A stretch of DNA of 52,531 nt. Source: Nanobdellota archaeon. Lineage in GTDB: Archaea; Nanobdellota; Nanobdellia; Woesearchaeales; GW2011-AR4. The position numbers and the translations under genes are program-made. Below, piece by piece: positions 1 to 33,567 of the stretch; position 1 is the stretch's first letter, and every line of letters starts with the position of its first letter. The stretch covers positions 1 to 52,531 of the forward strand of contig JADFLA010000004.1 of assembly GCA_022564635.1 (NCBI GenBank). Reading direction: 5' to 3'. A model generated the notes under the pieces. It saw only the letters and a list, made by a program, of their open reading frames with translations, was not told the origin of the DNA and searched no databases.

Positions 1-1977
1 TAAAAAACTGCCAATAAAGAAAGCACTCATTCCCAATAAAGTAAATACAATGCTTAAACCTAAAAAGAAAGCTATGGTCATTCCCTTAATGTTCTGTTTA
101 GAGGCTCTAAAGGAATAAGCAATATAGGCTGGAAGTATTGGCAAGGTACAAGGAGAAGCAAAAGAAACAAACCCTGCTATCAGGGCAATAATAATCAACA
201 GTAAAATCGGCCCTTGTAGTTTCTCAAGACCTTCTTCCGAGACATTAAAAGCTTGAGATGTAATTTGATTTTTTACTAATTCATCAACCCAAAAATTTTC
301 CTGTTTATCTTTCTCAAATTCCACAATTTTAATTTTGTTAATTTCATATTCTGATAATAAATTGTTTTCTATAATAAATTGTGCAGCTTTAATGAAATAA
401 TATGCACTATCAAGACCACCAATTTCCCTAATCTTATGACCAATAGTTTTAATTCCGGCATTTAAATACAAAGGCTCATTAGTCTGATCATATAATTTAA
501 GCAACGCAAATGCAATGATCCCATTTTCCTGCATAGGTTTTGATAATAATATGTTATCTCCGAGTGCATATAATTCTGTATCTGGACTATTCCTCTCAAA
601 AAATCCACCACCGTTCCAGTCATATAAATTCTCTAAACTAAAATCCGCAATTTTCCTTGCAACTTCTAAATACTCATCTTTACCCAAAACTTCATAACCC
701 TCAACAAATGCCAATAACAAATAAGAATTATCTAAAAGATTGCCTCTAACTCCTTTCTCCTTATTTTCTTTAAAGTAATGATATGCTCCATTATCACTTA
801 CCATATTTTTAGAAAAAAATTCTAATGATTTTTCTGCTATTAATTTATACTTTTTATTGCTAGTTGTCTGCCATAAATAAAGATACGTTAATATTGCATC
901 TGTGTTCCAATCAGAGTATTTTGTTTTTTCTACCCTTGGCTTGTCTGCTGGTCTTGGATATTTTCCATAGTATTCATCCTCTCCATGCACATCACTATTC
1001 CCATAAAAGCCTCCATTTAAGCTGTCATACCAATTTTTCTCAATAAAATCCAATGTTTTCTCAATTACTTCTTTAGTCAGTTCATCATTAGGTTTAATCT
1101 GCAACAAATGAAAATAAGCTTTCAACAATCTAGCATTATCATAAAGCATCTTTTCATAATGAGGTGGCGTCCATTCCCTCGTTGTACCATATCTATGAAA
1201 TCCACCATCAACAGGATCAAATAAATTATAATTTTCCTCTAACTCATCAACTTTTGTATATTGATTTTTTAATGTATTTTCAACAATTTTCAGAAACTGA
1301 TTATTTCCAGTTAATTCGTATAATTCCAAAGAAAAATCCAAAGTTCTGCCTTGTGGAAACTTCCGCCCTGTACCAAAACCACCATGCTCATTATCATAAG
1401 AGCCTAAAATAGATCCTGCAAGATTATTAATTAAATTATTAAGTTGATTTTGAGTTGGGATTATTGGATTTGATTTCTGATAGTTATACAAAACCTGGCT
1501 AGAAAAACTTTTGGAATTTACAAAATTAACCGCTTGCTGCAGATTAGCGACCATATTTGCAACAGGTCGTGGTCCAGAGTAACCAAACAGTCGTTCTCTA
1601 CTTGGTGCTATAACTGTTGTTGATGGCCAGCCACCTTCTAAGTATTGTCTTGTTAAATCCTGTCTCTTATCTGCATCAACATAAATTGGAATAAATTTTT
1701 CATTAATAATATCAACAACTTGTGGATTAAAAAGAAAATCCTCGCTTTCATATACTTGGCACCAATAACACCAAGATGGTGCTGTCAACAATAAGAAGAT
1801 TGGTTTATTTTCTTCTATAGCATCACTAAAAGCCTCAGGTCCGTAATCATACCAATTAATTAAAGGCTTAAGCTCTTCTGCATGTTCGTATGTATAATGT
1901 GATGTTGCATTAGCTATTCCAGGAAAGAATAATAAAACAAACAATACTAAAACAATATATTTGAGGTAAAGATTCAT
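1..1977 (-). CDS. YyaL/DUF255-type thioredoxin-domain protein fused to C-terminal CcdA/DsbD-like transmembrane domain (3' end truncated by window edge)
   Basis: Manual translation from ATG at 1977: signal-like MNLYLKYIVLVLFVLLFFPGIANA, then APSWCYWCQVYESEDF, PVDGGFHRYGTTREWTPPHYEKMLY (YyaL-like), and in the same frame near position 120 VSFASPCTLPILPAYIAY (CcdA motif). Open at window start, so absent from the ORF track. Frame checked at several points, not at every codon. Confidence 0.8.
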   Translation of the reverse strand, partial: MNLYLKYIVLVLFVLLFFPGIANATSHYTYEHAEELKPLINWYDYGPEAFSDAIEENKPIFLLLTAPSWCYWCQVYESEDFLFNPQVVDIINEKFIPIYVDADKRQDLTRQYLEGGWPSTTVIAPSRERLFGYSGPRPVANMVANLQQAVNFVNSKSFSSQVLYNYQKSNPIIPTQNQLNNLINNLAGSILGSYDNEHGGFGTGRKFPQGRTLDFSLELYELTGNNQFLKIVENTLKNQYTKVDELEENYNLFDPVDGGFHRYGTTREWTPPHYEKMLYDNARLLKAYFHLLQIKPNDELTKEVIEKTLDFIEKNWYDSLNGGFYGNSDVHGEDEYYGKYPRPADKPRVEKTKYSDWNTDAILTYLYLWQTTSNKKYKLIAEKSLEFFSKNMVSDNGAYHYFKENKEKGVRGNLLDNSYLLLAFVEGYEVLGKDEYLEVARKIADFSLENLYDWNGGGFFERNSPDTELYALGDNILLSKPMQENGIIAFALLKLYDQTNEPLYLNAGIKTIGHKIREIGGLDSAYYFIKAAQFIIENNLLSEYEINKIKIVEFEKDKQENFWVDELVKNQITSQAFNVSEEGLEKLQGPILLLIIIALIAGFVSFASPCTLPILPAYIAYSFRASKQNIKGMTIAFFLGLSIVFTLLGMSAFFIGSFL

Positions 1978-2023
1978 TTTACTTACTTTATTGTTATCCC
2001 CACAACCTTTTTTTGCTTTTATC

Positions 2024-2515
2024 TCAACATCCATCATTAGCTTTGCATATTAAATTTTCCAAATCTTTTTTATAAACAAAAGATGGATGTATTATTTCAT
2101 CAAAGCCATTGACCTTAAGTATCAATGTTGGAACTCTTATTGCCCCATATTGAATAAATTCCTTCTCACAATTGTCAATATTAAAAAACTCCAGAGAAAA
2201 CAAATTTCCTTTCTCTTTCAACAATTGTTTTAGTATAGGATCTTGTTTTTTGCACCATGCACAAAAATCAGAATAAAAGTATTTTATATTAAAAACCGAT
2301 TCTTTGTTGCCTGCTATTGCATCAGGACACCCTTTTTCTTCTAATTTATTTATTTCGCTGAAATCAAAGCTCACTTCATTACTATTCTGGGTTATTAAAT
2401 TATTTAACTCTGCCTTATATTGATAGATAATAACTGCAATTGATATGTTTACGAATATTGCTATTATTAATATTATAGTTAAAGATGTAGTTCTTTTATT
2501 GCTTTTCTTTGACAT
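2024..2515 (-). CDS. membrane-anchored thioredoxin-fold protein
   Basis: N-terminal TM; DFCAWCKKQDPILKQLL active site; RVPTLIL cis-Pro region; likely start MSKKSNK (internal to listed ORF). Confidence 0.75.
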   Translation of the reverse strand: MSKKSNKRTTSLTIILIIAIFVNISIAVIIYQYKAELNNLITQNSNEVSFDFSEINKLEEKGCPDAIAGNKESVFNIKYFYSDFCAWCKKQDPILKQLLKEKGNLFSLEFFNIDNCEKEFIQYGAIRVPTLILKVNGFDEIIHPSFVYKKDLENLICKANDGC

Positions 2516-2516
2516 T

Positions 2517-3221
2517 CTAAACAAAAATCGCAAATGCCCTATTTACAGCGATTTGATAATATATAATATAGCTGCCGGCAATTATTATTACAACAGCAGT
2601 TATAACCCTTACATATGGAAATATCCTAGAGAATTTTTTCATAATAGTAACTTTTGACATAGCAGTTATTACAGAGATGCCAACTACTCCAACAGCAGCT
2701 GCAACTGAATATATTAGGAAGATAAATATTCCATCGATAACACTACCTGTACTTAAAGCGCTTATTATTATAGCCAAAAAAACAGGTAGCGTGCAACTCA
2801 TTACTGCTAAACCATACCCTATCCCAAAAGTGTAAAAACGCAAAAAGCCGTTGTTTATTTTTTTCTTGGGTTGCAAATGAAACGGAAGCGCAAAAGAAAA
2901 ATTCTTATTAAATAACATGAAGAAACCAATAATTATCAAGACAAGCCCAACAACCAGGGTAAAGATTGGAATATAAAATTTTATAAAATTGCCAATATAA
3001 ACTATAATAGCTCCTATAATCATAAAGATGGATATTAGACCAAAAGAAACAAACAAACCATTTTTTAAGCCATTAAATAAATCCTTTTTTACATTTTTTT
3101 CACTTTTTTCCCTTCCAATGTAATAAGAAACATAGGCTGGAAGCATAGCTATGCCACATGGGCTTATGAATGTTACAAACCCTGCTGCTATTGCCACAGA
3201 TATTAAAGCCAGACTAATCAT
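2517..3221 (-). CDS. CcdA/DsbD-like transmembrane thiol-disulfide transporter
   Basis: FISPCGIAMLPAYVSYY and MSCTLPVFLAI paired Cys motifs, about 6 TM segments. Confidence 0.85.
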   Translation of the reverse strand: MISLALISVAIAAGFVTFISPCGIAMLPAYVSYYIGREKSEKNVKKDLFNGLKNGLFVSFGLISIFMIIGAIIVYIGNFIKFYIPIFTLVVGLVLIIIGFFMLFNKNFSFALPFHLQPKKKINNGFLRFYTFGIGYGLAVMSCTLPVFLAIIISALSTGSVIDGIFIFLIYSVAAAVGVVGISVITAMSKVTIMKKFSRIFPYVRVITAVVIIIAGSYIIYYQIAVNRAFAIFV

Positions 3222-3232
3222 TTTTAAAATTT

Positions 3233-3805
3233 TTAAGCTGTTAAACCTCTAAATATTGTTTCCCATTGCTCGTCATTTAAAACCCCATAGCCGGAGTAAA
3301 GAATAATACCTTCTCTGCTTACTGCAAATTTAGCTGTTGTTCCCCTAATTCCATAATCCGTTAATACTTCCGGATAACCCGGAGCAAAAATAAAGTCATG
3401 ATTTCTACTAGTTTTATATTGGCTTAATATTTGAGCATTTTCAGTCAAATCAAGATCAATTGCTATAAACTCTACTTGGTCCTTATATTTTGGATAAACT
3501 CTATCTACAACAGCCAAATCCTGTGTACAGTAAGGACACCATGTTGCCATAAAATAAACCAAGACAGGCTTGTTTTGCGCAGTTATCTCGCTTAATTTTA
3601 TTGTATTGCCTTCTGTTGTTGTAACTATAAAGTCTGGTGCTCTAAAGTCTTTACTATTACCAACGGGTATATCCCCTATAGCACTTTGTCCTTGCTGCAC
3701 AGCACTGCTGCTTATATTAACGTTTTTAGCACAACCTGCTATAAATATCAATAAAATAACTGAAATTCCTAATAAATATTTAACAAAAATTGCTTTTAGC
3801 TTCAT
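3233..3805 (-). CDS. TlpA/ResA-like thioredoxin-family lipoprotein
   Basis: lipobox LLIFIAGC; APDFIVTTTEGNTIKLSE; FMATWCPYCTQDL. Confidence 0.85.
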   Translation of the reverse strand: MKLKAIFVKYLLGISVILLIFIAGCAKNVNISSSAVQQGQSAIGDIPVGNSKDFRAPDFIVTTTEGNTIKLSEITAQNKPVLVYFMATWCPYCTQDLAVVDRVYPKYKDQVEFIAIDLDLTENAQILSQYKTSRNHDFIFAPGYPEVLTDYGIRGTTAKFAVSREGIILYSGYGVLNDEQWETIFRGLTA

Positions 3806-3819
3806 TTTTAATCAATCCA

Positions 3820-4449
3820 TTATTTTTTAGTTATAGTATATCCTAATATTTTGCTTAGTTCACTTTCTAAAGTTTCCAATGATGTTATCCAATTATCTTT
3901 ATATGTAATAAAACCATTTTTGTCTATCATAAATGTAGTTACTGTTTGCTTTACACCATACATTGAAGCAATTTTTGTGTCTTTATCCACTAGATGAATC
4001 CAATTTCCTCCATAAATTTTTACATACTTCTTAAAATCTTCATTGGAATCAAGTTGATAGGTATCGATTGATATAATTATTAAGCTATCTTTGTACTTTT
4101 CTTTTAGTTGCTCAAAAGCGTCTCTTTCATCAAAGGTCATTCCACACCAGGTAGCTGTAAAATCTAAGATAACTACTTTACCATTGAAATCGCTCAAGCT
4201 ATATGAATTACCCTTTATGTCCTCAAAAGAAAAATCAGGTGCTTTTTCTTCAACCTCTAGTACTGGTAAATCCTTATCATAAAGTTCTGGTATTGGCATT
4301 CCTCTAGACTTTACTTTAGCCGCATCTTTTATCAGATTTGAAATAAGTATGTTATCATCTTTACTTTGAGTTTGACAGCCAACAATAAAGAGTAACATAC
4401 CTGCCCCTACTAACAAACATGTTTTACTTAGTAATTTATTAAATGACAT
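3820..4449 (-). CDS. TlpA/ResA-like thioredoxin-family lipoprotein with CxxT active site
   Basis: lipobox LFIVGC; APDFSFEDIKGNSYSLSDFNGKVVILDFTATWCGMTFDERDAF; second active-site Cys replaced by Thr. Confidence 0.85.
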   Translation of the reverse strand: MSFNKLLSKTCLLVGAGMLLFIVGCQTQSKDDNILISNLIKDAAKVKSRGMPIPELYDKDLPVLEVEEKAPDFSFEDIKGNSYSLSDFNGKVVILDFTATWCGMTFDERDAFEQLKEKYKDSLIIISIDTYQLDSNEDFKKYVKIYGGNWIHLVDKDTKIASMYGVKQTVTTFMIDKNGFITYKDNWITSLETLESELSKILGYTITKK

Positions 4450-4484
4450 TTTATTTTCCTGATTATTTTTTTATATTGATATTT

Positions 4485-5423
4485 TTAATGCTCATGCTCA
4501 TCTCCAAAACCTGCTATTGCATCTTCTATAATATGCTCATAATACAAAGACATTCTTTTAATACTTTCTACCTTTCCATTAACGAAAAATGAAGAAGCGT
4601 TGATACCAATTTTTTCAGCAGTTTTTAAGTTATTAACAATTTCAAAAACATATTCTCTGTTTATTATGCAATTTTCAAATTTTTCAATATCAATGCCAAT
4701 CTCATCAGCATAGCTAACTAAATTTTCCTTACTACCAAAATTTTCTTTATCTTGATTTTTAAATAATAATTTGTGATATTCCCAGAACTTATTTTGCTGT
4801 TGAGCACATCTTGCAGCTAAAGCTAAATTTATAGAGTCAGGATTTGGCGCAAAATCCTTAAAAACATACCTCAATTTCCCATTATCTACAAATTCCTTAA
4901 TTATTTTCGGCTTTATTTTTTCATTAAATTCTTTGCATTCTTTACAATTAAAATCCTCAAAAACAATTAAGGTTGTAGCATCTTTGCTTCCTAATATAGG
5001 ATCTGAACTATCTACAAAATCCTCAGCTTTGAAAACTGGTTTTATTTGAAATTTGTTAAACTCTTCTTCTAATAATATCTCTGCATCATAGTAGCTTGTA
5101 AATATTTTTAAACTAATTATATCTTCTGGATTAATTAAACCAGAAATGTATTTTACTTCAGCGGTTTCAGCTTCAAGGTTGATATTAATTTCTTTAATAC
5201 CTTCTTCCGATAATAATGCTTTTTTTATTGTTGTTACACATGTAGGACAAGTCATTCCCCTTACCTTTAAATATGAAGTTTCAATTGAACCATCAAGGAC
5301 ATCATTAGAAGGTTTAGATTTTATATTATTAAAACTAAGAATAGCATAACTCCCGCCTATCATTAACAAAAGTACGAATATAAGTAAATATGTTTTGGAT
5401 TTAATTTCATTCAATTTAAACAC
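4485..5423 (-). CDS. HMA/MerP-like domain fused to DsbA-like thioredoxin domain, membrane-anchored
   Basis: VRGMTCPTCVTTIKKALLSEEGIKEININLEAETAEVKY (HMA-like) followed by IVFEDFNCKECKEFNEKIKPKII and KIGINASSFFVNGK (DsbA/thioredoxin_4-like). Confidence 0.85.
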   Translation of the reverse strand: MFKLNEIKSKTYLLIFVLLLMIGGSYAILSFNNIKSKPSNDVLDGSIETSYLKVRGMTCPTCVTTIKKALLSEEGIKEININLEAETAEVKYISGLINPEDIISLKIFTSYYDAEILLEEEFNKFQIKPVFKAEDFVDSSDPILGSKDATTLIVFEDFNCKECKEFNEKIKPKIIKEFVDNGKLRYVFKDFAPNPDSINLALAARCAQQQNKFWEYHKLLFKNQDKENFGSKENLVSYADEIGIDIEKFENCIINREYVFEIVNNLKTAEKIGINASSFFVNGKVESIKRMSLYYEHIIEDAIAGFGDEHEH

Positions 5424-6314
5424 CTATCTTACCTGCCAAAAATAAACATACATAAGATAAATCCCAACAACAATTAAAAGAGCGCTGCTTATCTTCTTGA
5501 TAGTGTTGCCAGCTATGCTAAGCTTGTTTAATAATAAATCTTTATATGAAGCGGTCATTGTTGTTACAATAACCATTGATAATCCATTTCCAATCAAAAA
5601 CGCTAAAAATCCAAATAAGCCAATTGCAAATTTTCCCAATATGAACGGTGACAAGATAACAATCAAGAAAATTGGTAATGTACATGCAGTTGAGCCAGCA
5701 GCATAAGCCATGCCAAAAAGATAAATCTTAACCTTGGGGCTCTTGATCTTGCTGGAATTTATTTTTCCCACCATACCTGATGATAATCTCTCAAATCCGA
5801 ACTTAAAATCTTTCTTCAGAAAATAACTTACACCCATAATAATAAAAACAATTCCAACTACTAATATTAAGGAATTAGTTATTGATTGTAATGATGTAGC
5901 TGCTCCAATTAAGAATAAAGGTATAGCAATTAAGACAAAGAAAGTTGACATGCCTAATGCTGCTATGAGACCTTTTCCAGCAGCTTTTCCAAAAGTTTCT
6001 TCTTTATCACCAGTTGTTATATAATATGCCATATAACTTGGGAGTATTGCTATTGAGCAAGGACACGGTGCTGAGAAAACTACTGTTCCAGCCAAAAAAC
6101 TAAATGCTAATGTAAGAATTAAAATTGAGTTATCTATATTATTTATATTGGGCAGTATAAACTTATAGTAACTGAAAATTCCTAGTCCAACTATTCCCAG
6201 AAAGATTAATGTAAGTACTAAAATAGATAGTTTGTCTTTACCAGAGCTTTTGGGCATTTTGTTATTTGCATTAGATGTATTCTTTGCTTTATTTGATTTT
6301 TTTATAATTATCAC
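5424..6314 (-). CDS. CcdA/DsbD-like transmembrane protein
   Basis: FSAPCPCSIAILPSYMAYY, STACTLPIFLIVIL, multiple TM segments. Confidence 0.8.
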   Translation of the reverse strand: MIIIKKSNKAKNTSNANNKMPKSSGKDKLSILVLTLIFLGIVGLGIFSYYKFILPNINNIDNSILILTLAFSFLAGTVVFSAPCPCSIAILPSYMAYYITTGDKEETFGKAAGKGLIAALGMSTFFVLIAIPLFLIGAATSLQSITNSLILVVGIVFIIMGVSYFLKKDFKFGFERLSSGMVGKINSSKIKSPKVKIYLFGMAYAAGSTACTLPIFLIVILSPFILGKFAIGLFGFLAFLIGNGLSMVIVTTMTASYKDLLLNKLSIAGNTIKKISSALLIVVGIYLMYVYFWQVR

Positions 6315-6315
6315 C

Positions 6316-6855
6316 TTAAGGACCTATTTTAATGCTATTCAGAAAGTTAAGCTGCCCATTAACATCGTCCTCATTCCCGTAGCTTATCAATAATCTGTCA
6401 TTATCTTTAATAATATAATTATCGAAATCATTATTCAACTTTTCATTGACGTAAAACTTTAAATTTTTATCATCATTATTGCAATAACTATTTCCTTTGT
6501 CATCTACGAAACAATTTTCATCAAAACCCATTCCTAAAGTCTCTAAAAAATGTCCTATAGTAATTCCGGTGGCATGCTTATGGATAATTATGCCATCCAA
6601 TCCCTCAATATGTACACGTCTCGCTCTAACCATGTATTCAGGCTTTGAAAGATCAAGTACATTACCATTTATGAATATTAAAAATGCAGTATGCTCATGG
6701 GTAGAATCCCAAGGTCCTATTGATGGATCTTTCAACACATATAAAGGCCTATCAATCGGTCCTCCATGAGGGGTGGGTTGAGGTGCTCTGCAACTGGCTA
6801 AGAAAATTAAACTCAATAAAAATAACATTGATAATAACAATTTTTTATTTTTCAT
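6316..6855 (-). CDS. secreted lipoprotein with conserved-looking His motifs (HEH...IIHKHA), possible metal binding
   Basis: lipobox LIFLASC; DSTHEHTAFLIFINGNVLDL; GIIIHKHATGITIGHFLETLG. Confidence 0.7.
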   Translation of the reverse strand: MKNKKLLLSMLFLLSLIFLASCRAPQPTPHGGPIDRPLYVLKDPSIGPWDSTHEHTAFLIFINGNVLDLSKPEYMVRARRVHIEGLDGIIIHKHATGITIGHFLETLGMGFDENCFVDDKGNSYCNNDDKNLKFYVNEKLNNDFDNYIIKDNDRLLISYGNEDDVNGQLNFLNSIKIGP

Positions 6856-6880
6856 TTTCTATTTTATAATATTATTATTT

Positions 6881-7891
6881 TTATGGTGCCATAGATTGCA
6901 ACTCATCTAAACTATCTCTTATATCAATAGGAATATCTTTACCATATATTTTTTCTAATACTTCTTTGTGTCTAGGCAAATTCTCATTTACCTCTTTTAA
7001 GACCAAATCAGAAAACAACAAAAGCTGCTTTTTCTCCTTACCTTTTTCCTTGGCAGTTTTTACGAATTTTAAAGTGTTGCTGAGAGAAGCTGTATAAGCA
7101 TCTGACAGAGCTTCTTTATTTTCTTCTATCTTATTAATATTTATTAAAAAGTTCATTTCCTTTATTCTATTGTTAGCCATTAAAAACTGATTTTTGGCTT
7201 TGTAAATGACGGTGGGGGATAAAGAAAATCTAACTTGCTCAGTTTTAATTTTTGCAGGATATATGTAGGTTCCAGGAGTATAAGAAGTACCTAAATTTTC
7301 AATTAAAGATGATAATCTTAACATTAATTTTATTCTCTTTTCATTATTTTCTGGAGTTCCTTCTTTAATTTCTTTGCCTCTGCTTTCAACTTCATCCAAT
7401 AAAGAAATAATTTCATCCATCCCTTCCTTGCTCCTTATTGCAGTTAATATTTTAGCTTCTGCCTTTTGTAATGGCTCTATAGCGTACCTATAATCATAAT
7501 CTAAAACCGGGCTGCTTTCAAATTTAAAATCATCAGCTTCTCCTACTATTTTTTCTTCAACAAATTTAGCAGTATAATATCCAGAAAAAATGTCATGGTT
7601 TAAGATTTCATCTTTGCTTATTACAAAATCATTATAGTTTAAAATTGTATTTCCGGTTTCCAATTCTATAGTAGTATTAATTATACCCGGAGTACCTTCC
7701 AATGAACTTTTTACAACATTTGCGCATGCCTGGCAAACAAGACCTTTAACCTCTAATCTTAATTCTTTTATTTTTCCTTGTGTAGCTTTTTCCTCAGGAG
7801 AATTATATAGTAATAATGAAAATAGAAATATCCCCATAATAAAAACAATTCCAAATCCAATAATAAAATTAGTTATTTTTTTACCTTCCAT
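6881..7891 (-). CDS. membrane-anchored protein with N-terminal HMA-like domain and long helical C-terminus
   Basis: TM then LEVKGLVCQACANVVKSSLEGTPGIINTTIELETGNTILNY; C-terminal part unrecognised. Confidence 0.7.
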   Translation of the reverse strand: MEGKKITNFIIGFGIVFIMGIFLFSLLLYNSPEEKATQGKIKELRLEVKGLVCQACANVVKSSLEGTPGIINTTIELETGNTILNYNDFVISKDEILNHDIFSGYYTAKFVEEKIVGEADDFKFESSPVLDYDYRYAIEPLQKAEAKILTAIRSKEGMDEIISLLDEVESRGKEIKEGTPENNEKRIKLMLRLSSLIENLGTSYTPGTYIYPAKIKTEQVRFSLSPTVIYKAKNQFLMANNRIKEMNFLININKIEENKEALSDAYTASLSNTLKFVKTAKEKGKEKKQLLLFSDLVLKEVNENLPRHKEVLEKIYGKDIPIDIRDSLDELQSMAP

Positions 7892-7903
7892 TTTTAATCA
7901 TAT

Positions 7904-8881
7904 TTATATCTTTTTGTCTTCCAAAAGTTTTGCAGTGTAGCTCCATTCATATTTGGTATTTTCAGAAAAAATATCATTATTTAGAATGTCATTTTCTATT
8001 GAAGTCAAAGTAGAATCATAAACTATAGCCCCTTTACTATTTTCAAGACTTAAAATAACATCAACCACACCGGGAATATCTTTTATGTTATCTTTAATTA
8101 TTTTAATGCACGCTGGACATGTCATTCCTTTTATTTCGAGAACAGCTAAATTGTACCTTTGATTATCAAATATTTCCTCCATTCTTGAGACTTCCTCCTC
8201 AAAATTAATTTGCTTTACTTTACCATAGACATCATCACTTGTTGCAGAGGCATCTAAACTTAGAGATTTTAAACCTAATTTACTTAATTCCTTAACAAGG
8301 GTTTCATACTCTGTAGAATAAGAATCTCTGTAAGCAATTTTTCCATTTTTATCAATTAAAATTGTTGTGCCTGTAAAAGGGCTTCCATATTTTACGACAA
8401 CATTATCGGTATCGCGGGCATAAATCCAATTATCATAACCTTCTGAATATGCCCTAATAAATCTTTTTATGTCTTCGTTTGTTTCTGTAGGATCTATGTC
8501 TACAGATATAATGCTTACTTTTGGAAAATTATTCAATAATTTTCTAAAGTCATCAGTTTCAGAAATGCAAACACCGCACCATGTAGAAAATATCTCAACA
8601 ATCGCTGGATTTCCTCTAAAATCAGACAGTTTAAAGCTTTTTCCATTTACATCCGTAAGTGCGAAATCAGGAGCTTCTTTTCCAGGAGCGCTTTTAATAC
8701 CACCAGCTGCCTTTGCACTTTCTGCTAAAATAAAAGCTATAGGATCAGATTTTTTAATGTCTGGTTTATTAATATTCGTTATAGTAAAATAAATACCTAT
8801 AATAACAACTAACAAAATAAAACCTGCTGACATTCCTAACAAAAAAGTATTTTTTTCCTTTTTTTCCATCTTTAGTTCCAT
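7904..8881 (-). CDS. TlpA-like thioredoxin domain fused to C-terminal HMA-like domain
   Basis: APDFALTDVNGKSFKLSDFRGNPAIVEIFSTWCGVCISE; IKGMTCPACIKIIKDNIKDIPGVVDVILSLENSKGAIVYD. Confidence 0.85.
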   Translation of the reverse strand: MELKMEKKEKNTFLLGMSAGFILLVVIIGIYFTITNINKPDIKKSDPIAFILAESAKAAGGIKSAPGKEAPDFALTDVNGKSFKLSDFRGNPAIVEIFSTWCGVCISETDDFRKLLNNFPKVSIISVDIDPTETNEDIKRFIRAYSEGYDNWIYARDTDNVVVKYGSPFTGTTILIDKNGKIAYRDSYSTEYETLVKELSKLGLKSLSLDASATSDDVYGKVKQINFEEEVSRMEEIFDNQRYNLAVLEIKGMTCPACIKIIKDNIKDIPGVVDVILSLENSKGAIVYDSTLTSIENDILNNDIFSENTKYEWSYTAKLLEDKKI

Positions 8882-8916
8882 ATCTACTAAAAATCAATTT
8901 ACTCCATTTCTCTTAA

Positions 8917-9141
8917 TCAGAAACAACCGCCTACTTGGTCTGGTATCTCTGCTTGTATATCAATTACACTTTTTGAGGGACTTGGGCTGCCAGTAGTAAT
9001 TTTTGTCGAGGCACTTCCTATTGAAAAGCCTCCTTCATTAAGACTATTTTTGACATTAATTAACTGTATTGCCTGCACTGTTGCTATAAGCAAAGTCACT
9101 ACAACTAAAATTAAAAGTATTTTCTCCATTTTTAACTCCAT
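8917..9141 (-). CDS. small membrane-anchored peptide ending PDQVGGCF
   Basis: 74 aa; one N-terminal TM, Ser/Thr/Gly-rich middle, C-terminal AEIPDQVGGCF; lies within the operon. Confidence 0.7.
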   Translation of the reverse strand: MELKMEKILLILVVVTLLIATVQAIQLINVKNSLNEGGFSIGSASTKITTGSPSPSKSVIDIQAEIPDQVGGCF

Positions 9142-9159
9142 TTTTGCACCTCCATGAAT

Positions 9160-10029
9160 TTAAAAACATCCACCTACCTGGTCTGGGACAACACTTGATA
9201 TATCCTGTCCTCCTAGAGCTGCTTCTACTCTCAGTTTTCCATTTCTTGAGAAAGTCTGGACATCTATTGGTATTGTTGATGGGTCCAAGCCCTGATCTAA
9301 ATAATACTTTGCCCATTTAACTGCCATACCAGGGAAAAAGTAGGCCATCCATACTCTTAACTCATCTTCTATCTGGTCTTTCGTATAACCTTGTTTTAAC
9401 AATAAGGTTGTTAAACCTCTAATTGTTCCTTTTTTAAAGCAACCACCTGCACCACCCGGGGCATTGCAAAACAAGCAACCACCTACCGCATCTTTAAAAT
9501 TATTTTCTTGAGTTCCATACATTAAATCAGCGTAAATCTTTTGTTGCTCAGAGGTTAAGTCCTTAGGTACATCTTGTCTGCCTCTGCCACCATTAGGCGG
9601 AAAGGGATCAAACTTCATAAGAATATTTCTTTTATCTAAAGTTAATTCAATTGGCTGCCCATTAACTGAAAAAGGTCTTATCTTATCTTCTTCACTTGGT
9701 AAAACCGCTGCAGCAATTTCTTGAATCGAAGCGTCACTTCCTAGATTTATGGTTCTACTAGAAATCCCAATAGAACTGCCAGTAACAGATATTGGTAAGC
9801 TAAATATCATATACTGATTAAAAGCCAGCACAAGAAACACTAAAAACATTATAATCATATACGGTTTATAGTTTACCTCCTCTTTTTTTTCATCCTCTGC
9901 ATGATGTAAAATATTATATGGTTTATGGCTAATTTTTCCCTTTTTTTTATGAAGAACATGGTATATAACCTTATTATACTCAGAACCTAATTCTTCACTT
10001 TTCTCATGATCTTTTTGGGATCCTTCCAT
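9160..10029 (-). CDS. membrane-anchored Cys/Gly-motif protein ending VPDQVGGCF
   Basis: 289 aa; central DAVGGCLFCNAPGGAGGCFKKG and terminal SSVVPDQVGGCF; one TM. Confidence 0.75.
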   Translation of the reverse strand: MEGSQKDHEKSEELGSEYNKVIYHVLHKKKGKISHKPYNILHHAEDEKKEEVNYKPYMIIMFLVFLVLAFNQYMIFSLPISVTGSSIGISSRTINLGSDASIQEIAAAVLPSEEDKIRPFSVNGQPIELTLDKRNILMKFDPFPPNGGRGRQDVPKDLTSEQQKIYADLMYGTQENNFKDAVGGCLFCNAPGGAGGCFKKGTIRGLTTLLLKQGYTKDQIEDELRVWMAYFFPGMAVKWAKYYLDQGLDPSTIPIDVQTFSRNGKLRVEAALGGQDISSVVPDQVGGCF

Positions 10030-10067
10030 TTTAATTAACCTCCAAATTGAAATTGTTTATCTAGCAA

Positions 10068-11345
10068 TTAAACTTCAATAATATCATTAACCTTATTATT
10101 CGAACTACTATCATAACTCAAATCTTTATAAACAATATTCTTACCCATTGCTTCAAGACTTCTAAAAACATAGCTACCATCATCTTCCACTGTAAAAAAG
10201 TTTCCAAAACTTTTTGCAGAAGGATAATCAGAAAAATCACTTGATAATATTATAGTAGGAACTTTAGTAATAGAATATTTCTCAACTAATTCCTTGCCTT
10301 CGTCATCTGAAATATCGATCTTTTTTTCGCTATTAATATTTATGTTAATCCCTCTAGGATTTGACAAAATTTGCCTATGAATTTCTACATCATAGCAATC
10401 TAAACAACTTTTGTCTGATAGGTAAGTAACATCAACTAATCCCACCACTTTATTTTTATTTAAATCAAAATATGGCGGACTTATTGTTCTAAAAATATAG
10501 CTCCCATCATTTTCAACAGTACCTACTTGCTGCCAATCTTTAGTTATATCTTCATAAGCAGATAAATCTGAAGAAATTATTAAGGAAGGCACTTTGTCTA
10601 AGCTATACTTGGAAATAAGTGAATCTGCATTTTTTATATCAACCACTTTTTCATCTGTAATTGCAACACCTAGTTGCTTTAATTGTCGTACAAAGATTGA
10701 CAAGTCTGTGCAATTTCCACAAGTTGCATCATTTATATAAGTTAAAGAAACTCTTCCCATAATTTCATTAGAAGATGTATCAAAATATGGTGCCTTAATT
10801 CCTGTAAATATCAACGCATCGCTCTCTTTTTTTAAACCAAGATTACCTGATTTTTCTATCTCGCCAAAAACTAAAACTGTAGGAATCCTTTTAATATTGT
10901 ATTTGTTAATTAAATCCTTTGCTTTTGCAGAATTCAAATCTAAAGATTCTTCATTTGTAATTTTTACTTTATTATTTTTTATGGAATTTAGGATTTGGCT
11001 GAGATCAAAACAGTCGGTACATGCAGTGTTCTCTATTACTGTGAGCTGAATCTCTGCAGGTCTTGTTAACTCCTCAGCTTCTTCAATTTTTGCCTTAGCT
11101 GTATTTTTTAAGCCAAATGCCAAAAATAGATTTAATATTAGCAATAGGCTTAAAGCAACTACAAGCAAGTTAATTAATTTAATTCCTTTTAAATTCTCAA
11201 AAAAATTAATTTTTATTTTTTTATCATCTGGAATTTTCTCATGAACACTTTTATTATGGTGTTCATGAACATTATGATGCTTTTCCATCCCATCATGCCT
11301 ATTAGTTTGGTGATGCCCTTTTTCTGTATGGTGTTCTTTTTCCAT
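10068..11345 (-). CDS. His-rich membrane protein with three tandem thioredoxin-like CxxC domains
   Basis: N-terminal MEKEHHTEKGHHQTNRHDGMEKHHNVHEHH; TM; TACTDCFDL, ATCGNCTDL, KSCLDCYDV each followed by a KYxIxKxPTxx block. Confidence 0.8.
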   Translation of the reverse strand: MEKEHHTEKGHHQTNRHDGMEKHHNVHEHHNKSVHEKIPDDKKIKINFFENLKGIKLINLLVVALSLLLILNLFLAFGLKNTAKAKIEEAEELTRPAEIQLTVIENTACTDCFDLSQILNSIKNNKVKITNEESLDLNSAKAKDLINKYNIKRIPTVLVFGEIEKSGNLGLKKESDALIFTGIKAPYFDTSSNEIMGRVSLTYINDATCGNCTDLSIFVRQLKQLGVAITDEKVVDIKNADSLISKYSLDKVPSLIISSDLSAYEDITKDWQQVGTVENDGSYIFRTISPPYFDLNKNKVVGLVDVTYLSDKSCLDCYDVEIHRQILSNPRGINININSEKKIDISDDEGKELVEKYSITKVPTIILSSDFSDYPSAKSFGNFFTVEDDGSYVFRSLEAMGKNIVYKDLSYDSSSNNKVNDIIEV

Positions 11346-11373
11346 TTTATATTTTTATTTTCTCACACTTAAA

Positions 11374-11808
11374 TTAAATTTTACAACCTGTTAGATCTGC
11401 CAACCTGTTAAATGTCTGTACATTTTCATAATACTTGCCGTTAATTAACCAAGTAGGTGTTATCTTGATATTAGGATCCTCAGTAAAATCCCTGGAGTCA
11501 ATAAACCTCATAGAATTTCCAAACATTCCCTTTTGTGCATGAGTATATTGACATGCAGATGCACCATACATAATAACACCCTTCTCAGTTAAGCATTGTG
11601 CAAAACCATCCAAGGGCGCTGGCTTCAAAGTATTTAAATAACCAAAACCAATACCCACGAAAATCAAAATAATAGCAACTGAAATACTAGAAACAATTAG
11701 AATTTTTTTGTAATTTTTTGGCTTTTCTATTGTACTTTTGTCTATGTTTTGCTCTGTTTTTTGACTTTCATCCCTAATGCTTTCAATTTCATCCTTGCTT
11801 AAAGCCAT
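11374..11808 (-). CDS. membrane-anchored thioredoxin-like protein resembling the C-terminal Trx domain of VKOR fusions, active site CxxT
   Basis: LDGFAQCLTEKGVIMYGASACQYTHAQKGMFG ... PNIKITPTWLINGKYYENVQTFNRLADLTGC. Confidence 0.75.
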   Translation of the reverse strand: MALSKDEIESIRDESQKTEQNIDKSTIEKPKNYKKILIVSSISVAIILIFVGIGFGYLNTLKPAPLDGFAQCLTEKGVIMYGASACQYTHAQKGMFGNSMRFIDSRDFTEDPNIKITPTWLINGKYYENVQTFNRLADLTGCKI

Positions 11809-11816
11809 TTTTGAAA

Positions 11817-12035
11817 CTATAGATTACTAGGGACTGAGCCTATGCTAGCTGAACTATCACCCAAATTGTCTACAGGTGCTACTCCGCAACCACCACCTAC
11901 ATAAGGTTGTTGCTGTCCACCCTGACCCTGTTGCGCACTATAGGCTGCATACCCAGTAGAGCTGCTTTTGGTACACCCAGCCACTAACACAATCCCTACC
12001 AACAATACCACAAATAAAATTGTTTTGTACTTCAT
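11817..12035 (-). CDS. small lipoprotein with GGGCG motif
   Basis: lipobox VLVAGC; Gln/Gly-rich YVGGGCGVAPVDNL. Confidence 0.65.
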   Translation of the reverse strand: MKYKTILFVVLLVGIVLVAGCTKSSSTGYAAYSAQQGQGGQQQPYVGGGCGVAPVDNLGDSSASIGSVPSNL

Positions 12036-12267: not shown

Positions 12268-12789
12268 TTAAAAATTCTCTGTCAAGAATACCTCATAAGT
12301 TTTCCCTTTTGCTTTTCTTGCTACTAAGTTCTTTTTTTCAAAATCCATAAGAATCTGGCTTACTTTTGCTTTTGATAAATTAGTTCTATACTTTAAAGTG
12401 GATTGTGTTACTCCTTCCTGTTCTTTAACAGACATTAAAACCTTTCTTTCATTCCCATCCAAAGGCCTTAGCAATAAGTTAAACTTATCTTCATCTGTCT
12501 TTTGCATTTTCTCTTCTTGAATTTTCTCTAATGCATCATTATATTTTGACACATCTACCTCACTCTTGTTAAAAAACAATAAATAAAACCCCAATGCAAA
12601 AATAAAAGACAAGACTCCAACTGCTATATGTGAGGTTCCTAATAAAGAATTTACTTGTTGGCATTCCTTGGTTGGATTGCATTGAAGCTGTTGTCCTTGT
12701 AAATTAAGCTGATTCATATAAGAAAACATAATGAAACCTAGAATAATACTCATACCTACAATTAAAAAGCCAAGTTTTTTTGTTTCCAT
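12268..12789 (-). CDS. membrane-anchored winged-helix transcriptional regulator
   Basis: Two N-terminal TM helices flanking a QCNPTKECQQ loop; C-terminal NERKVLMSVKEQEGVTQSTLKYRTNLSKAKVSQILMDFEKKNLVARKAKGKTYEVFLT wHTH. Confidence 0.8.
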   Translation of the reverse strand: METKKLGFLIVGMSIILGFIMFSYMNQLNLQGQQLQCNPTKECQQVNSLLGTSHIAVGVLSFIFALGFYLLFFNKSEVDVSKYNDALEKIQEEKMQKTDEDKFNLLLRPLDGNERKVLMSVKEQEGVTQSTLKYRTNLSKAKVSQILMDFEKKNLVARKAKGKTYEVFLTENF

Positions 12790-13042: not shown

Positions 13043-13678
13043 CTAAACTGTCTTAATCTTCTTAACTAATTCCCTAGCATCTTCTTTAACGTCATCAGCA
13101 CCAACAACAGCACTAATAACAGCTACACTCTTAACTCCTTGATCTAAAACAGAATCAATATTTTTTTTATTTATCCCACCAATTGCTATCAATGGTTTAT
13201 TAATCTTATTTATAATCTGATTAATAATGTTGGTACCTACTGTATAATCCTTTGACCTTGTTTTGAATATTGGACCTATTGTAATGTAATTAGTACCTTC
13301 TTTATCCGCTTTGATAGCCTGCTCACTACTATGCGTAGACAACCCTATTATTAAATTTTTATATTTTTTATTGGAAATTTCTCTTGCACCTTTAATAGAC
13401 ATATCACTTTGTCCCAAATGAACACCATCCGCATTAATTTCCAAAGCAACATCAACATAATCATTCAAAATAAAAAGAACATTATTTTCTCTGCAAATTT
13501 TTAATAGTTTAATTGCTTCTTCTTTTATTCTATTTTTGTCCCAATTCTTTTCCCTTAATTGAATTATCTCTGCACCGCCTTTTATCGCTTCCTTAACAAT
13601 AAATTCATTGCTCCTATTTTTAGAAATAGTACTTTCTGTTATTACATATAATTTATTGTTAAAATCAAAGTTTTTCAT
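13043..13678 (-). CDS. thiE: thiamine-phosphate synthase
   Basis: IQLREKNWDKN, FILNDYVDVALEINADGVHLGQSD, IGLSTHSSEQA, TIGPIFKT. Confidence 0.93.
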   Translation of the reverse strand: MKNFDFNNKLYVITESTISKNRSNEFIVKEAIKGGAEIIQLREKNWDKNRIKEEAIKLLKICRENNVLFILNDYVDVALEINADGVHLGQSDMSIKGAREISNKKYKNLIIGLSTHSSEQAIKADKEGTNYITIGPIFKTRSKDYTVGTNIINQIINKINKPLIAIGGINKKNIDSVLDQGVKSVAVISAVVGADDVKEDARELVKKIKTV

Positions 13679-13779
13679 AATAAAAAGAAATTATTTTTAT
13701 TTTTTATTTGATTATTTTTATTGTTATAATTTTTATTTTAATGGAAAAAATTTATTTGAATATCATTGTACCAAAAATT

Positions 13780-14550
13780 CTATTTAATGACACCTTCTAT
13801 CGGACTGGAAGCACTTGCATACAGTTTCTTTTGAATCCTACCAGCCAAAAAAGCGTCTCTTCCAGACTCTATAGCTGATTTCATTGCCCTTGCCATCCTT
13901 ACAGGATCCTTAGCCAATGCAACTCCAGTGTTAAGCAAAACTCCATCCGCACCCAGCTCCATTGCAATTGTAACATCCGAAGCCGTTCCAACACCAGCAT
14001 CAACAATTATTGGAACATTTGCATTCTCTATAATATTTTTTATATTGTTTGGATTCAAAATACCTTGTCCGGACCCGATTGGACTTCCAAGCGGCATAAC
14101 AGATGTTGCTCCAGCTTCCTCAATTTTCTTAGCATATATAATATCATCATTTGTATAAGCTAGAACAGTAAAACCCTCCTTAACCAAAACCTTTGTAGCC
14201 TTAAGTGTTTCCCCATTATCAGGCATTAATGTTTTTTGGTCTCCTATAACCTCTAATTTAACCCAATCTCCCATTCCTAACTCGCGAGCAAGCCTTGCAG
14301 TTCTGATTGCATCTTCCGCAGTATAACAACCAGCAGTATTCGGCAATATAGTAAGTTTATCTTTATTAATATAATTCAACAAATTTTCTTTTTCATCATC
14401 AAAATTAACCCTTCTTATTGCAACAGTAACAACTTCTGCACCACAAGCCTCATGCGCCTTTTTCATTACCTCAAAATTCTCATACTTCCCAGTACCAATA
14501 ATCAATCTGGAATTAAATTCAAACTTTCCAATTTTTAATTTGTCATCCAT
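13780..14550 (-). CDS. thiG: thiazole synthase
   Basis: [62 protein letters not shown]. Confidence 0.95.
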
Positions 14551-24323: not shown

Positions 24324-25847
24324 TTATTGTGTTGTTGAGTTTTGTAGTAATGTCGAATAAATAGATTTTTGGGGCTTATACCATTTCCTTTTGTCTTTCT
24401 CAATCAAAACATCTGCTTCCTTAGGTCCCCAGCTTCCTGCATTATAACTAGTAACCTTTCCATTCTTCCACGCTTTTGATATCTTATCAACAATCTTCCA
24501 AGAATGTTCCACCATATCCCAGCTTGTAAATAAAGTTTGATCACCAATCATTACATCATAAAGCAATCTTTCATAAGCATCTGGAGTATTAGGGCCAAAC
24601 TTACATTCATGGCAGAAATCCATCCTTACATTATCAACTATCATTTTTTTGCCAGGAATCTTTGCAGAAAATTGTAAGGAAATTCCTTCTTCTGGCTGTA
24701 TCCTGACAATTAACATATTTGGTTCTATGTTTTTGACATGCTCATTGAACAAAATTCCTGGATTTTGCTTAAAAACAATATTTATCTCAGCAACCCTTTC
24801 CTTTAGCCTTTTTCCTGTTCTTAAATAAAAGGGAACATTTAACCATCTCCAATTATCGATATTAAGTTTTAATGCAGCAAAAGTCTCAGTATTTGAATTT
24901 TTTTCAATTTTATCCTCCTCCCTGTAAGCCTTTACTCTTTTGTTATTTATTGTTCCAGATCCATACTGACCGCGTACTGCTATTTTACTAACCTCTTTTA
25001 ACGTAAATGCTCTTATCGATCTTAAAACTTTTACTTTTTCCTCTCTTACATCATCTGCATCTAAACTAACTGGAGGTTCCATCGCTGTCAGCACAATAAG
25101 TTGCATCATATGGTTCTGTATAATATCCTTTAGAGCTCCAGACTTATCATAATAATTCCCTCTAGTTTCAACACCTAGATCTTCTGCAACAGTAATCTGT
25201 ACATGATCTATATATTTCTTGTTCCATATAGGATCAAAAATACTGTTTGCAAATCTAAGAACCAGCAAATTTTGCACAAGCTCTTTTCCTAAGTAATGAT
25301 CAATTCTGTATATTTCATTTTCCTTGAAAGCCTTTTTTATTGCCTTGTTAAGTTTTTTTGCTGACTTTAAGTCGTGACCAAATGGTTTTTCAAAAACAAC
25401 TCTGCTCCATGATTTTTCACTTATAGCAAGGCCGCTTTTCTTCAAATTATTTATTATCACCTCAAAGAAAGATGGGGGCGCTGCAAGGTAAAAGATTCTG
25501 TTGCATTTTCCGGAAGATTTTGAGCATATTTTTTTTATCAAATTCTTAAGTTTATTATAACCTTTAATATCTTGAAACTCGGACTGATGGTAAACAATTT
25601 TATTTGATAACCTCTTCCAAACTTCGTTATTTACTTTAAATTTTGAAAAATTTTTTATCGCTTTTAATGATTCTTTTCTAAACTGTTCATTATCTTTTGA
25701 TTTCCTTGCAAATGCAATTATTTTAGATTCCTTATGCAGAAGACTCTCAAATTCAAGCTTATACAGAGCTGGCAACAATTTCCTATTTGTTAAGTCCCCG
25801 GTTGCCCCAAAAATAATTATTATACAAGGATCAATATTTTTTTCCAT
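24324..25847 (-). CDS. zwf: glucose-6-phosphate dehydrogenase
   Basis: IFGATGDLTNRKLLPALY; YRIDHYLGKELVQNLLVLRFAN; ETRGNYYDKSGALKDIIQNHMMQ. Confidence 0.95.
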   Translation of the reverse strand: MEKNIDPCIIIIFGATGDLTNRKLLPALYKLEFESLLHKESKIIAFARKSKDNEQFRKESLKAIKNFSKFKVNNEVWKRLSNKIVYHQSEFQDIKGYNKLKNLIKKICSKSSGKCNRIFYLAAPPSFFEVIINNLKKSGLAISEKSWSRVVFEKPFGHDLKSAKKLNKAIKKAFKENEIYRIDHYLGKELVQNLLVLRFANSIFDPIWNKKYIDHVQITVAEDLGVETRGNYYDKSGALKDIIQNHMMQLIVLTAMEPPVSLDADDVREEKVKVLRSIRAFTLKEVSKIAVRGQYGSGTINNKRVKAYREEDKIEKNSNTETFAALKLNIDNWRWLNVPFYLRTGKRLKERVAEINIVFKQNPGILFNEHVKNIEPNMLIVRIQPEEGISLQFSAKIPGKKMIVDNVRMDFCHECKFGPNTPDAYERLLYDVMIGDQTLFTSWDMVEHSWKIVDKISKAWKNGKVTSYNAGSWGPKEADVLIEKDKRKWYKPQKSIYSTLLQNSTTQ

Positions 25848-25915
25848 TTTTTATATTATTATTTAAGTTTTTATTATTATTGAGTTTTATTTTATATTGG
25901 AATTTTTAAATGTGC

Positions 25916-26809
25916 TTAATTTTTCTTCTTTACAGCATGCCCCCCAAACTCTCTCCTTGTAGCAGCTATTACCTTTTTTCCCAAAATAAACTTCTTACTT
26001 TTATCCTGCCTTATTTTTGTAGCAATTTCAAAAGCAGGAGCATACCCTTTAATCGATTTTGCTGTTTTCTTGAGCTCGTCAATTGTAACACTACCAATTT
26101 TTGGACTAATATTATTAAAATCTGGTCTTTTAAGTGCTATATTTGTAAGGTCAAGTAACCAACTATTTACCACACTTGCTGGCCTCCACACAGAAGTTGC
26201 TTTAACAATATCTATCGGCTGTTTAAACTTACTGAGTAACTCTACACCTTCTGCTAAACCTTGCAAATATACATACTCAACTATGTTATGCACACTTTTG
26301 ACAAAATGTCCTGCTCCGGCATTTCCAAAATAACCATAACCTCCTTTAGCAGAAAGAGCTCTGCAAATAGGTTCTATATACCTAAATTTTTTCTTAGGTC
26401 CACCAATCATTAAAGTGTATCCATTTTTTAGGCCCCAAATACCTCCTGATACACCGCAATCAAAAAAATAAATGCCATATTTTTTACACCATTTGTCATG
26501 TTTTTCTGCATTTTTATAGAAATCATTTGCCCCATCTATTATAATATCCCCTTTCTTTAATAACCGTAGTATTTTTTTCATCATATGATCAGTAGCTTTG
26601 CCTGCCGGTAACATCAACCAAACAATTTTCTTCCCAGGCAGCTTCTCAATTAACTCCTCAACACTGTAAGCAGGAATAGCACCTTTCCTAGCAATTTTCG
26701 TGACTTTTTCAGGGCTTCTATTATATGCAACAACATTAATTTTATACTTAAGAAGTCTCTCAACCATATGAAAACCCATTCTCCCTAAACCAATAAAACC
26801 CAGTTTCAT
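25916..26809 (-). CDS. gnd: 6-phosphogluconate dehydrogenase (short, NAD/NADP type)
   Basis: MKLGFIGLGRMGFHMVERLL; MLPAGKATD; DCGVSGGIWGLKNGYTLMIGG; HFVKSVHNIVEY. Confidence 0.9.
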   Translation of the reverse strand: MKLGFIGLGRMGFHMVERLLKYKINVVAYNRSPEKVTKIARKGAIPAYSVEELIEKLPGKKIVWLMLPAGKATDHMMKKILRLLKKGDIIIDGANDFYKNAEKHDKWCKKYGIYFFDCGVSGGIWGLKNGYTLMIGGPKKKFRYIEPICRALSAKGGYGYFGNAGAGHFVKSVHNIVEYVYLQGLAEGVELLSKFKQPIDIVKATSVWRPASVVNSWLLDLTNIALKRPDFNNISPKIGSVTIDELKKTAKSIKGYAPAFEIATKIRQDKSKKFILGKKVIAATRREFGGHAVKKKN

Positions 26810-29373: not shown

Positions 29374-29988
29374 ATGGGGGCACTATTAATATCAATAATC
29401 GTTGTAGTTTTGATTATTGTTTTGTTCTTATTAAATTTCTACAGAGATCCTGAAAGAAAAATACCAATAGGCAACAATATAGTAAGCCCTGCAGATGGTC
29501 GCGTTTTAAAAATTTTAAAAACTAATAATAACAAAATAAAGATAAATAAAGGCTCTCTTGGAAAAATAGAAACCCTTACAAGGGATATAGCAAAAGAGTG
29601 CTATGTTATCTCGATTTTTATGTCTCCTTTTGATGTCCATGTTAACAGAGCTCCAATAGAAGGCGAAATAGGTTCTATAAAGTATAAAAAAGGAAAGTAT
29701 TTTGCTGCATATAATCTAAAAAAATCTTTAATGAACGAGAAAAATGAGATAATAATAAAAAATAAAATTATAGGAAAAATAAAGATGATACAGATTGCTG
29801 GTTTTCTTGCTAGAAGAATTATTTGCTCAGTAAATATTAATGATAAAGTTAATAAAGGACAGAGGATAGGCAAGATTGTACTTGGTTCACAAGTTACCTT
29901 AATATTACCATCAAAGAAAATAAAGCTTAAGATTAAAAAAAATCAAAAAGTGGTTGGGGGTGAAACAGTAGTTGCTATTTTAAGATGA
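29374..29988 (+). CDS. asd: phosphatidylserine/archaetidylserine decarboxylase-like
   Basis: FYRDPERKIPIGNNIVSPADGRV; FMSPFDVHVNRAPIEGEI; GKIVLGSQVTLILP (GS autocleavage-like site). Confidence 0.9.
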   Translation: MGALLISIIVVVLIIVLFLLNFYRDPERKIPIGNNIVSPADGRVLKILKTNNNKIKINKGSLGKIETLTRDIAKECYVISIFMSPFDVHVNRAPIEGEIGSIKYKKGKYFAAYNLKKSLMNEKNEIIIKNKIIGKIKMIQIAGFLARRIICSVNINDKVNKGQRIGKIVLGSQVTLILPSKKIKLKIKKNQKVVGGETVVAILR

Positions 29989-31579: not shown

Positions 31580-31586
31580 CTTAAAA

Positions 31587-32783: not shown

Positions 32784-32929
32784 AAAAGAGGAGTTAATTA
32801 TAGCATGGTAAGACTAATTGTTTATAATATAGAATATTGTGAGGGTATGACAGGTTTATGGTGGGAATATTTTAAAATTTGATTTGCGTAAATAAAACCA
32901 ATATAGAAATGATCTTGAGTGATGCATAG

Positions 32930-33490: not shown

Positions 33491-33567
33491 ATAAGATGAA
33501 GAATTAAAGTCTTTGCTTTTTATATCTTTCGTAAAATTTATTAACACATTATAAATATCTCCCGTCA

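Follow-up and report, generated by a model that had tools for sequence, protein, structure and literature searches.

Comparative genomics of a VGGC-tailed membrane protein pair in DPANN archaea and a proposed envelope thiol/copper relay

Introduction

The reduction of copper ligands by TlpA ahead of metallation is established (PMC7558416), and extracytoplasmic reductants of the TlpA and CcdA types belong to the TlpA/Sco/PCuAC pathway of CuA assembly (Bradyrhizobium, Rhodobacter). Such reductants are also encoded by a run of 15 minus-strand genes at positions 1–12035 of contig JADFLA010000004.1 from a Nanobdellota archaeon, and loci related to this run (together termed the module) contain CuA cupredoxins and copper ATPases. 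Unlike the CuA pathway, the module has no proven Sco or PCuAC protein and no oxidase, and it has a membrane protein termed BIG and a small VGGC-tailed membrane protein (the tether), which are absent from that pathway. The product of the run is probably an extracytoplasmic relay, which keeps cysteines reduced and passes on copper. The window that was analysed is the entire contig (contig 67, 52,531 nucleotides, from base 1) of an assembly of 1.43 Mb that is 87% complete; its genome is termed G000.

Other described systems share features with the module. CopG (DUF411) functions in copper resistance and binds a tetranuclear Cu cluster (PDB 6WIS; PMC7558416). DUF411 proteins with CGCC are encoded beside the tether gene in many relatives; however, CopG operons as described are without BIG and tether, and the genome of the window is without a DUF411 match. 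MerT/MerP mercury uptake resembles the locus in having HMA (heavy-metal-associated) domains outside the cytosol, and a MerT-HMA-like protein is found beside the module in a relative of the same genus (L153), but MerA and MerR were not seen here and the matches are well below family cut-offs. The VKOR-thioredoxin (Trx) fusion of Synechococcus (PDB 3KP9) has a Trx domain homologous to one protein of the module (E-value 1e-10); that protein, however, has no VKOR domain, and CxxT replaces CxxC where BIG is present.

The VGGC tail and the BIG protein

Two sets of genomes were compared, 60 genomes of the order and 285 genomes of the phylum (284 besides G000). BIG homologues were first sought with the 289-aa GGC protein of the window, and this search found them in 19 of the 60 genomes of the order. 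Most BIG open reading frames terminate exactly in -MVGGC, and so does the neighbouring tether, a protein of 53–112 aa with one transmembrane (TM) segment. The tail was then used as a DNA search pattern (ATG-GTN-GGN-GGN-TGY-stop), with the reversed pattern as a control. It is present in 37 of these 60 order-level genomes, where its sites almost always lie in neighbouring pairs that differ in their codons; the reversed pattern has a single site in the same set. All open reading frames recovered from the tail sites of the closest 60 genomes are BIG or tether. Across the phylum the pattern is found in 76 of 285 genomes.

BIG is present in all 76 tail-bearing genomes and absent from 206 of the 209 tail-less ones (Fisher 2e-66, uncorrected for phylogeny). 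The three genomes that have BIG without the exact pattern end in -QVGGCF (G000), -QVGGC (G066) and -IVGEC (G130), and in G000 and G066 the change from M to Q is found in the tails of both members of the pair together. Genomes that have the triple-Trx protein of the run without BIG show no VGGC tail. The tether has lost its tail where BIG is absent: its homologues in the BIG-less loci L103, L113, L117 and L122 end in VGNQ, PEVAE, GVACPYT or VQGCFS.

The tether consists of a TM segment, a linker of 18–78 residues and the tail (alignment A2). Its last five positions have an entropy of 0.3–0.6 bits, in contrast to mostly 2.6–3.2 bits in the linker. The tail is conserved and the linker variable, and therefore the tail is what selection acts on. 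Of 70 BIG proteins, 19 have no VGGC end while their tethers retain it; thus the tail can act in trans. The co-occurrence of tail and BIG, the co-variation of the two tails, and the tail-less BIG proteins with tailed tethers are most economically explained if BIG receives the tail, in cis or in trans. For both proteins an extracytoplasmic orientation is suggested by the positive-inside trend (45 of 51 BIG proteins and 43 of 71 tethers).

The tail might instead be a sorting or processing signal, where a protease or transferase recognises -VGGC and, for example, cleaves off the Cys so that Gly-Gly is exposed, or attaches the thiol to a lipid or another protein. Its exact C-terminal placement and its presence on two otherwise unrelated proteins would fit, and QbsE, which ends in GGCF, is trimmed by a JAMM protease. 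This explanation is improbable: no candidate protease or transferase is conserved among the loci, the tail tracks BIG alone and some BIG proteins are without it, so that BIG itself is the likely receptor, and E1 chemistry, which is ATP-driven, would not be expected at the predicted extracytoplasmic site of the tails. A diGly carrier of the QbsE/ThiS type was rejected as having the wrong fold. Such carriers are cytosolic and beta-grasp; the tether is one TM segment with a variable linker and the BIG model is all-helical.

A sulfane-sulfur carrier was also considered, in which the VGGC Cys bears a persulfide on a flexible arm and is fed by the extracytoplasmic rhodanese lipoproteins of some loci. 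DsrC is a precedent, its flexible C-terminus being persulfurated at the penultimate Cys (PMC3397948). DsrC/TusE and the module share a flexible arm at the C-terminus that bears a reactive Cys in the terminal or penultimate position; the proteins of the module, however, are different ones, membrane-tethered, predicted to lie outside the membrane and seen without DsrE/TusA partners. A rhodanese lipoprotein is found in 8 loci and a DoxX-like protein in 8, but this is a minority, and neither is near the module of the window. We consider a sulfur carrier unlikely, about as much so as a processing signal. A literature search for VGGC found no paper using that word. The relay proposed below would, if right, explain a conserved C-terminal motif on two unannotated protein families, and the motif is a simple handle to find and test the system.

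BIG proteins have one TM segment (some forms carry more) and display, in order, the motifs YGxxxGVSFDD, C-E/D-Y/F-C-C-G, C-G-C-x-H and SDxEI..E..KWK..FFP (alignments A1, A7). BIG has no Pfam or NCBIfam family, and no PDB sequence relative was found. The AlphaFold model is all-helical with a predicted local distance difference test (pLDDT) score of 89, and about 88 in the tail block; Foldseek gave no PDB fold match (best E-value 3.8). The six-residue cluster CxxCC..CxCxH appears to be a metal site more than a redox site. BIG and the tether are a previously undescribed pair of membrane proteins and, by their conservation, the core of a phylum-wide module.

An origin of BIG from CcmH, based on a by-eye likeness in CxxC, SDxEI and KWK..FFP, was rejected, as CcmH is absent from the Pfam matches of 21 BIG members at E 5 and has no Foldseek support. 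An origin from the PCYCGC family (PF13798) was rejected as well. These are Cys-rich membrane proteins or lipoproteins that also occur in related loci, but they are not among the Pfam matches, and a comparison of profiles with BIG showed no similarity (hhalign probability 3%, one divergent family member compared). PCYCGC-family proteins adjoin BIG and tether at L138:3456–3815 and L145:6038–6496.

The module in related genomes

Related loci were gathered with the triple-Trx protein as query. The gene order of the run recurs in these loci, and thus the run is not a chance arrangement. The named loci come from Woesearchaeota, Aenigmatarchaeota, one Nanoarchaeota and Magasanikbacteria (L108) of the candidate phyla radiation (CPR). 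Genes usually follow the order BIG, tether, (YVGGGC lipoprotein), (VKOR-type Trx), triple-Trx, then the lipoprotein termed HEH and/or CcdA. A second common set is a helix-turn-helix (HTH) protein, BIG, tether, DUF411, an HCPLC membrane protein and a helical protein. Co-occurrence of triple-Trx and BIG is strong, not strict (56/71). The initial annotation had proposed a dedicated envelope thiol/metal system that would be linked in relatives, and this is what the neighbourhood comparison found, with the GGC proteins as its most tightly conserved part. These proteins had been suggested as possible clients to be modified. They are indeed conserved in the same system, but the two main ones form the core pair with a shared C-terminal -VGGC and are not arbitrary clients. 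The data fit a shared thiol arm at least as well as the unproven modification of clients, and we think the arm likelier.

In many loci a homologue of the HTH protein is encoded next to BIG, and two or more Cys residues lie in the loop region of 28 of 29 such homologues; therefore the membrane HTH protein of the window is probably the envelope-sensing regulator of the module. The VKOR-type Trx of the window matches the Trx part of VKOR-Trx alone. In this family the site is CxxT in 22 of 23 loci with BIG, and CxxC in the four proteins from loci without BIG that could be classified (p 3e-4, uncorrected for descent), as if a partner supplied the missing thiol. A matching of the three Trx domains of triple-Trx to three GGC proteins was rejected, since loci without GGC72 also have three CxxC motifs.

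In Buchananbacteria (L106, L107, L109) the neighbours of a two-domain triple-Trx relative are a Trx-CcdA fusion and a ZIP-like transporter, and there are no VGGC tails. This arrangement may be the CPR form of the relay or else a separate system.

Proteins of the CcdA, TlpA and DsbA types are common to loci for cytochrome c or haem-copper oxidase maturation, and a match to such a characterised locus would have spoken against a dedicated pathway. PF01578 (Cytochrom_C_asm; CcmF/CcmC/CcsA) was found in 0 of 60 relatives, G000 included, in a search whose control was positive in 8 of 14 genomes, and this excludes a cytochrome c maturation locus as far as haem handling is concerned. The likeness of BIG to CcmH is unsupported, and a CuA protein of DPANN archaea is reported without other oxidase parts (PMC10936187). 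An ordinary maturation locus of either kind is thus most improbable.

A relay for redox purposes only has more in its favour. BIG and tethers would be thiol oxidoreductases, or part of a reductase chain from CcdA through triple-Trx and VGGC to clients, which protects or isomerises envelope disulfides; copper genes would be mere neighbours in a stress island. Among 59 loci examined, 34 have CcdA and 47 triple-Trx, and minimal loci such as L086 contain just BIG, tether, triple-Trx, CcdA and DoxX. The conversion to CxxT is compatible with mixed-disulfide chemistry.

Association with copper proteins

DUF411 is found in 43 of 285 genomes, 40 of these with BIG (p 4e-23, uncorrected for phylogeny). 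Its gene is usually 256–464 bp from the tether gene, and its sequence aligns to CopG 6WIS (6e-26). CopA-type ATPases and CuA cupredoxins are also located in the loci of relatives, and Met-rich proteins are linked to them. CuA-type cupredoxins at an E-value of 1e-25 or better, a threshold chosen post hoc, are present in 26 of 40 genomes with BIG and in 6 of 40 without it (p 9e-6); at 1e-10 the numbers are 31 of 40 and 19 of 40 (p 0.01). A CuA-only "nosZ-like" protein has been reported in DPANN genomes (PMC10936187), and the related loci place such proteins next to a plausible maturation system.

A redox-only relay leaves the close association with DUF411/CopG, CuA and CopA unexplained, as well as the His/Cys-rich cytosolic tails, and the cluster of BIG looks more like a metal site. 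That G000 has no DUF411 match is in its favour. On balance we regard it as doubtful, although it is the foremost of the alternatives. The reading with copper is preferred: relatives have proteins specific to copper in linkage with the module (DUF411/CopG, CopA-type ATPase, CuA cupredoxins), and these point to copper as the metal.

Two sequences annotated here as copper-ATPase-like (L020:2–2110 and L030:3–2021) have N-terminal DPVCxMEV..YFCSxxCYxKF, YHS/TRASH-like by eye, ahead of HMA domains.

The window as a diverged member

G000 has three HMA proteins, two of them fused to Trx folds. The TlpA-HMA fusion has no full-length match in the 284 other genomes, where matches cover the TlpA part only, and with HMA-DsbA as query almost only the Trx part was matched; weak near-full-length places were found in G224 and G162 only (27–28%). 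None of the fetched loci of relatives carries an HMA-Trx fusion. These fusions were therefore rejected as a shared hallmark of the module; they appear to be peculiar to the genome of the window. The initial annotation had named conserved co-occurrence of GGCF proteins with HMA-Trx fusions as a sign of a system, and this was not seen in the fetched loci.

The tails of G000 are QVGGCF, and its BIG keeps C185, C188 and C197 but has lost C189, C195 and H199. We take the locus to be a diverged, expanded copy of the phylum-wide module, in which the HMA fusions may have taken over the metal step or the substrate may have changed.

Several points weigh against a thiol/copper relay. The BIG of the window has lost ligands of CCG and CxH, and in its genome (87% complete) DUF411 was not found and only distant P-type ATPase matches, with no close CopA, were detected. 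Copper is identified by association, and two MerT/MerTP-like neighbours make mercury or another soft metal possible. Docking of the tail on BIG is suggested by a tail pLDDT near 88, with no coordinates, and the predicted topology by the positive-inside trend. The relay is proposed from comparative genomics, with co-occurrence counts uncorrected for phylogeny.

Proposed mechanism

With moderate confidence, the module is proposed to be an envelope thiol/copper(I) relay with the VGGC tails as tethered thiol arms. CcdA proteins would carry electrons out of the cytosol, the direction of flow being presumed, and the triple-Trx, TlpA and DsbA-type proteins would hold extracytoplasmic thiols reduced. 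BIG would bind a soft metal through thiolates, Cu(I) being the likeliest. Each tail, on its flexible linker of 18–78 residues, may be a swinging thiol arm: BIG would be docked by its own tail or, in trans, by that of the tether, and the arms would hand metal or electrons to the monothiol CxxT Trx, CopG/DUF411, HMA domains and CuA cupredoxins. The Cys loop of the membrane HTH protein may sense the thiol or copper state of the envelope. In the window, the HMA-Trx fusions may do the metal transfer that is handled by separate proteins in relatives.

A broader proposal is more tentative. VGGC tail and BIG could possibly be a new device, a membrane-tethered, swappable C-terminal thiol arm that docks on a dedicated Cys/His receptor fold, which moves copper(I) in many DPANN genomes and at least one Magasanikbacteria (CPR) genome and provides the so far missing maturation of orphan DPANN CuA ("nosZ-like") proteins. 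If the relay as such is right, DPANN archaea have a pathway for envelope thiols and metal whose core proteins are peculiar to it, and there is a testable maturation route for CuA-only proteins, elsewhere reported as possible DPANN nitrous oxide reductases (PMC10936187).

Gene content of the window

All genes of the uninterrupted minus-strand run of about 15 described in the initial annotation were located (Table 1), with intergenic spacing of −14 to +38 bp; expression as a single transcript may be expected. The next minus-strand gene lies 232 bp from the upstream end of the run and encodes the HTH protein, which had been missed. Searches of Pfam, NCBIfam and PDB upheld the earlier domain calls, except that the contig end truncates the YyaL-CcdA fusion, CxxT sites are found in the second TlpA and in the VKOR-type Trx, and the latter has no VKOR domain. 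PADLOC gave no match.

Table 1. Genes of the run and the adjoining regulator gene.
Positions	Strand	Product	Evidence
1..2037	−	DsbH/YyaL-type Trx and six-hairpin domain fused to CcdA; gene truncated 3′ by contig end	PF03190 (DsbH/DUF255) 1e-20, PF07470 2e-7, partial DsbD_TM
2024..2515	−	Membrane-anchored thioredoxin, FCAWCKKQ	PF00085 7e-6
2517..3221	−	CcdA/DsbD-type membrane electron carrier	DsbD_2 PF13386 1.7e-8
3233..3805	−	TlpA-type lipoprotein, WCPYC	PF00578 1.7e-13
3820..4449	−	TlpA-type lipoprotein, monothiol WCGMT site (CxxT, not CxxC)	PF00578 4e-19
4485..5423	−	HMA (GMTCPTC) and DsbA-type Trx (Thioredoxin_4) fusion	PF00403 2.7e-11, PF13462 2e-26
5424..6314	−	CcdA-like membrane protein	Paralogue of 2517–3221: 30% identity over 220 aa, 2e-22
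6316..6855	−	HEH lipoprotein, invariant His/Cys domain, undescribed	Conserved HxH/H/H/C/C, alignments A4/A8
6881..7891	−	HMA (GLVCQAC) and DUF5667-like helical protein	PF00403 7.5e-6, PF18915 1.1e-5 (weak DUF5667)
7904..8881	−	TlpA (AhpC-TSA) and C-terminal HMA (GMTCPAC) fusion	PF00578 8e-18, PF00403 5e-9
8917..9141	−	Small tether: one TM, variable linker, C-terminal DQVGGCF	Family A2; tail conservation
9160..10029	−	BIG: one TM, diverged Cys-cluster domain (CLFC..GGCF), C-terminal DQVGGCF; 289 aa	Family A1 profile E 1e-52
10068..11345	−	Membrane-anchored triple thioredoxin (three CxxC domains), His-rich cytosolic tail	PF00085/PF13192; alignment A3
11374..11808	−	VKOR-type monothiol thioredoxin (CQYT), 144 aa	Family vs PDB 3KP9/4NV6 1e-10
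11817..12035	−	Small lipoprotein, YVGGGCGVAP motif	Alignment A6: motif invariant in 5 genomes; present in 20 loci
12268..12789	−	Two-TM membrane-anchored winged HTH, Cys pair C-N-P-T-K-E-C in inter-TM loop	PF24034 2e-7, MarR 1e-5

Matches to DsbD_2 and DsbD_TM, the CcdA paralogue and the Trx, TlpA and DsbA matches agree with electron transfer of the CcdA/DsbD type. The DsbH-CcdA product has a signal-like N-terminus. For the membrane-anchored thioredoxin, the ATG at 2515 is preferred as start to the TTG at 2533. Orthologues of the WCPYC lipoprotein adjoin BIG in L025, L027, L032 and L035. The CcdA-like paralogue has no match in a Pfam search, and the HEH lipoprotein matches no Pfam or NCBIfam family; the AlphaFold2 model of the latter (pLDDT 86) weakly resembles the transcobalamin beta domain in its fold (best E-value 0.047).

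Outside the run, ThiE and ThiG (PF02581, PF05690) are encoded together at 13043–14550, adjoining the module; ThiG normally requires the sulfur carrier ThiS. Adjacent genes at 24324–26809 encode a bacterial-type glucose-6-phosphate dehydrogenase (PF02781, 8e-129) and 6-phosphogluconate dehydrogenase (PF03446, 1e-40). To our knowledge, this pair of the oxidative pentose phosphate pathway is not expected in a DPANN archaeon. A 633-aa protein at 48408–50309 has no Pfam match at 1e-5 and is nucleotidyltransferase-like by eye (GSDIDVWIV). A lipid headgroup cluster at 29374–35811 encodes phosphatidylserine decarboxylase (PF02666), an iron-ADH-type dehydrogenase and several CDP-alcohol phosphatidyltransferase-like proteins, two of which are two-domain by eye.

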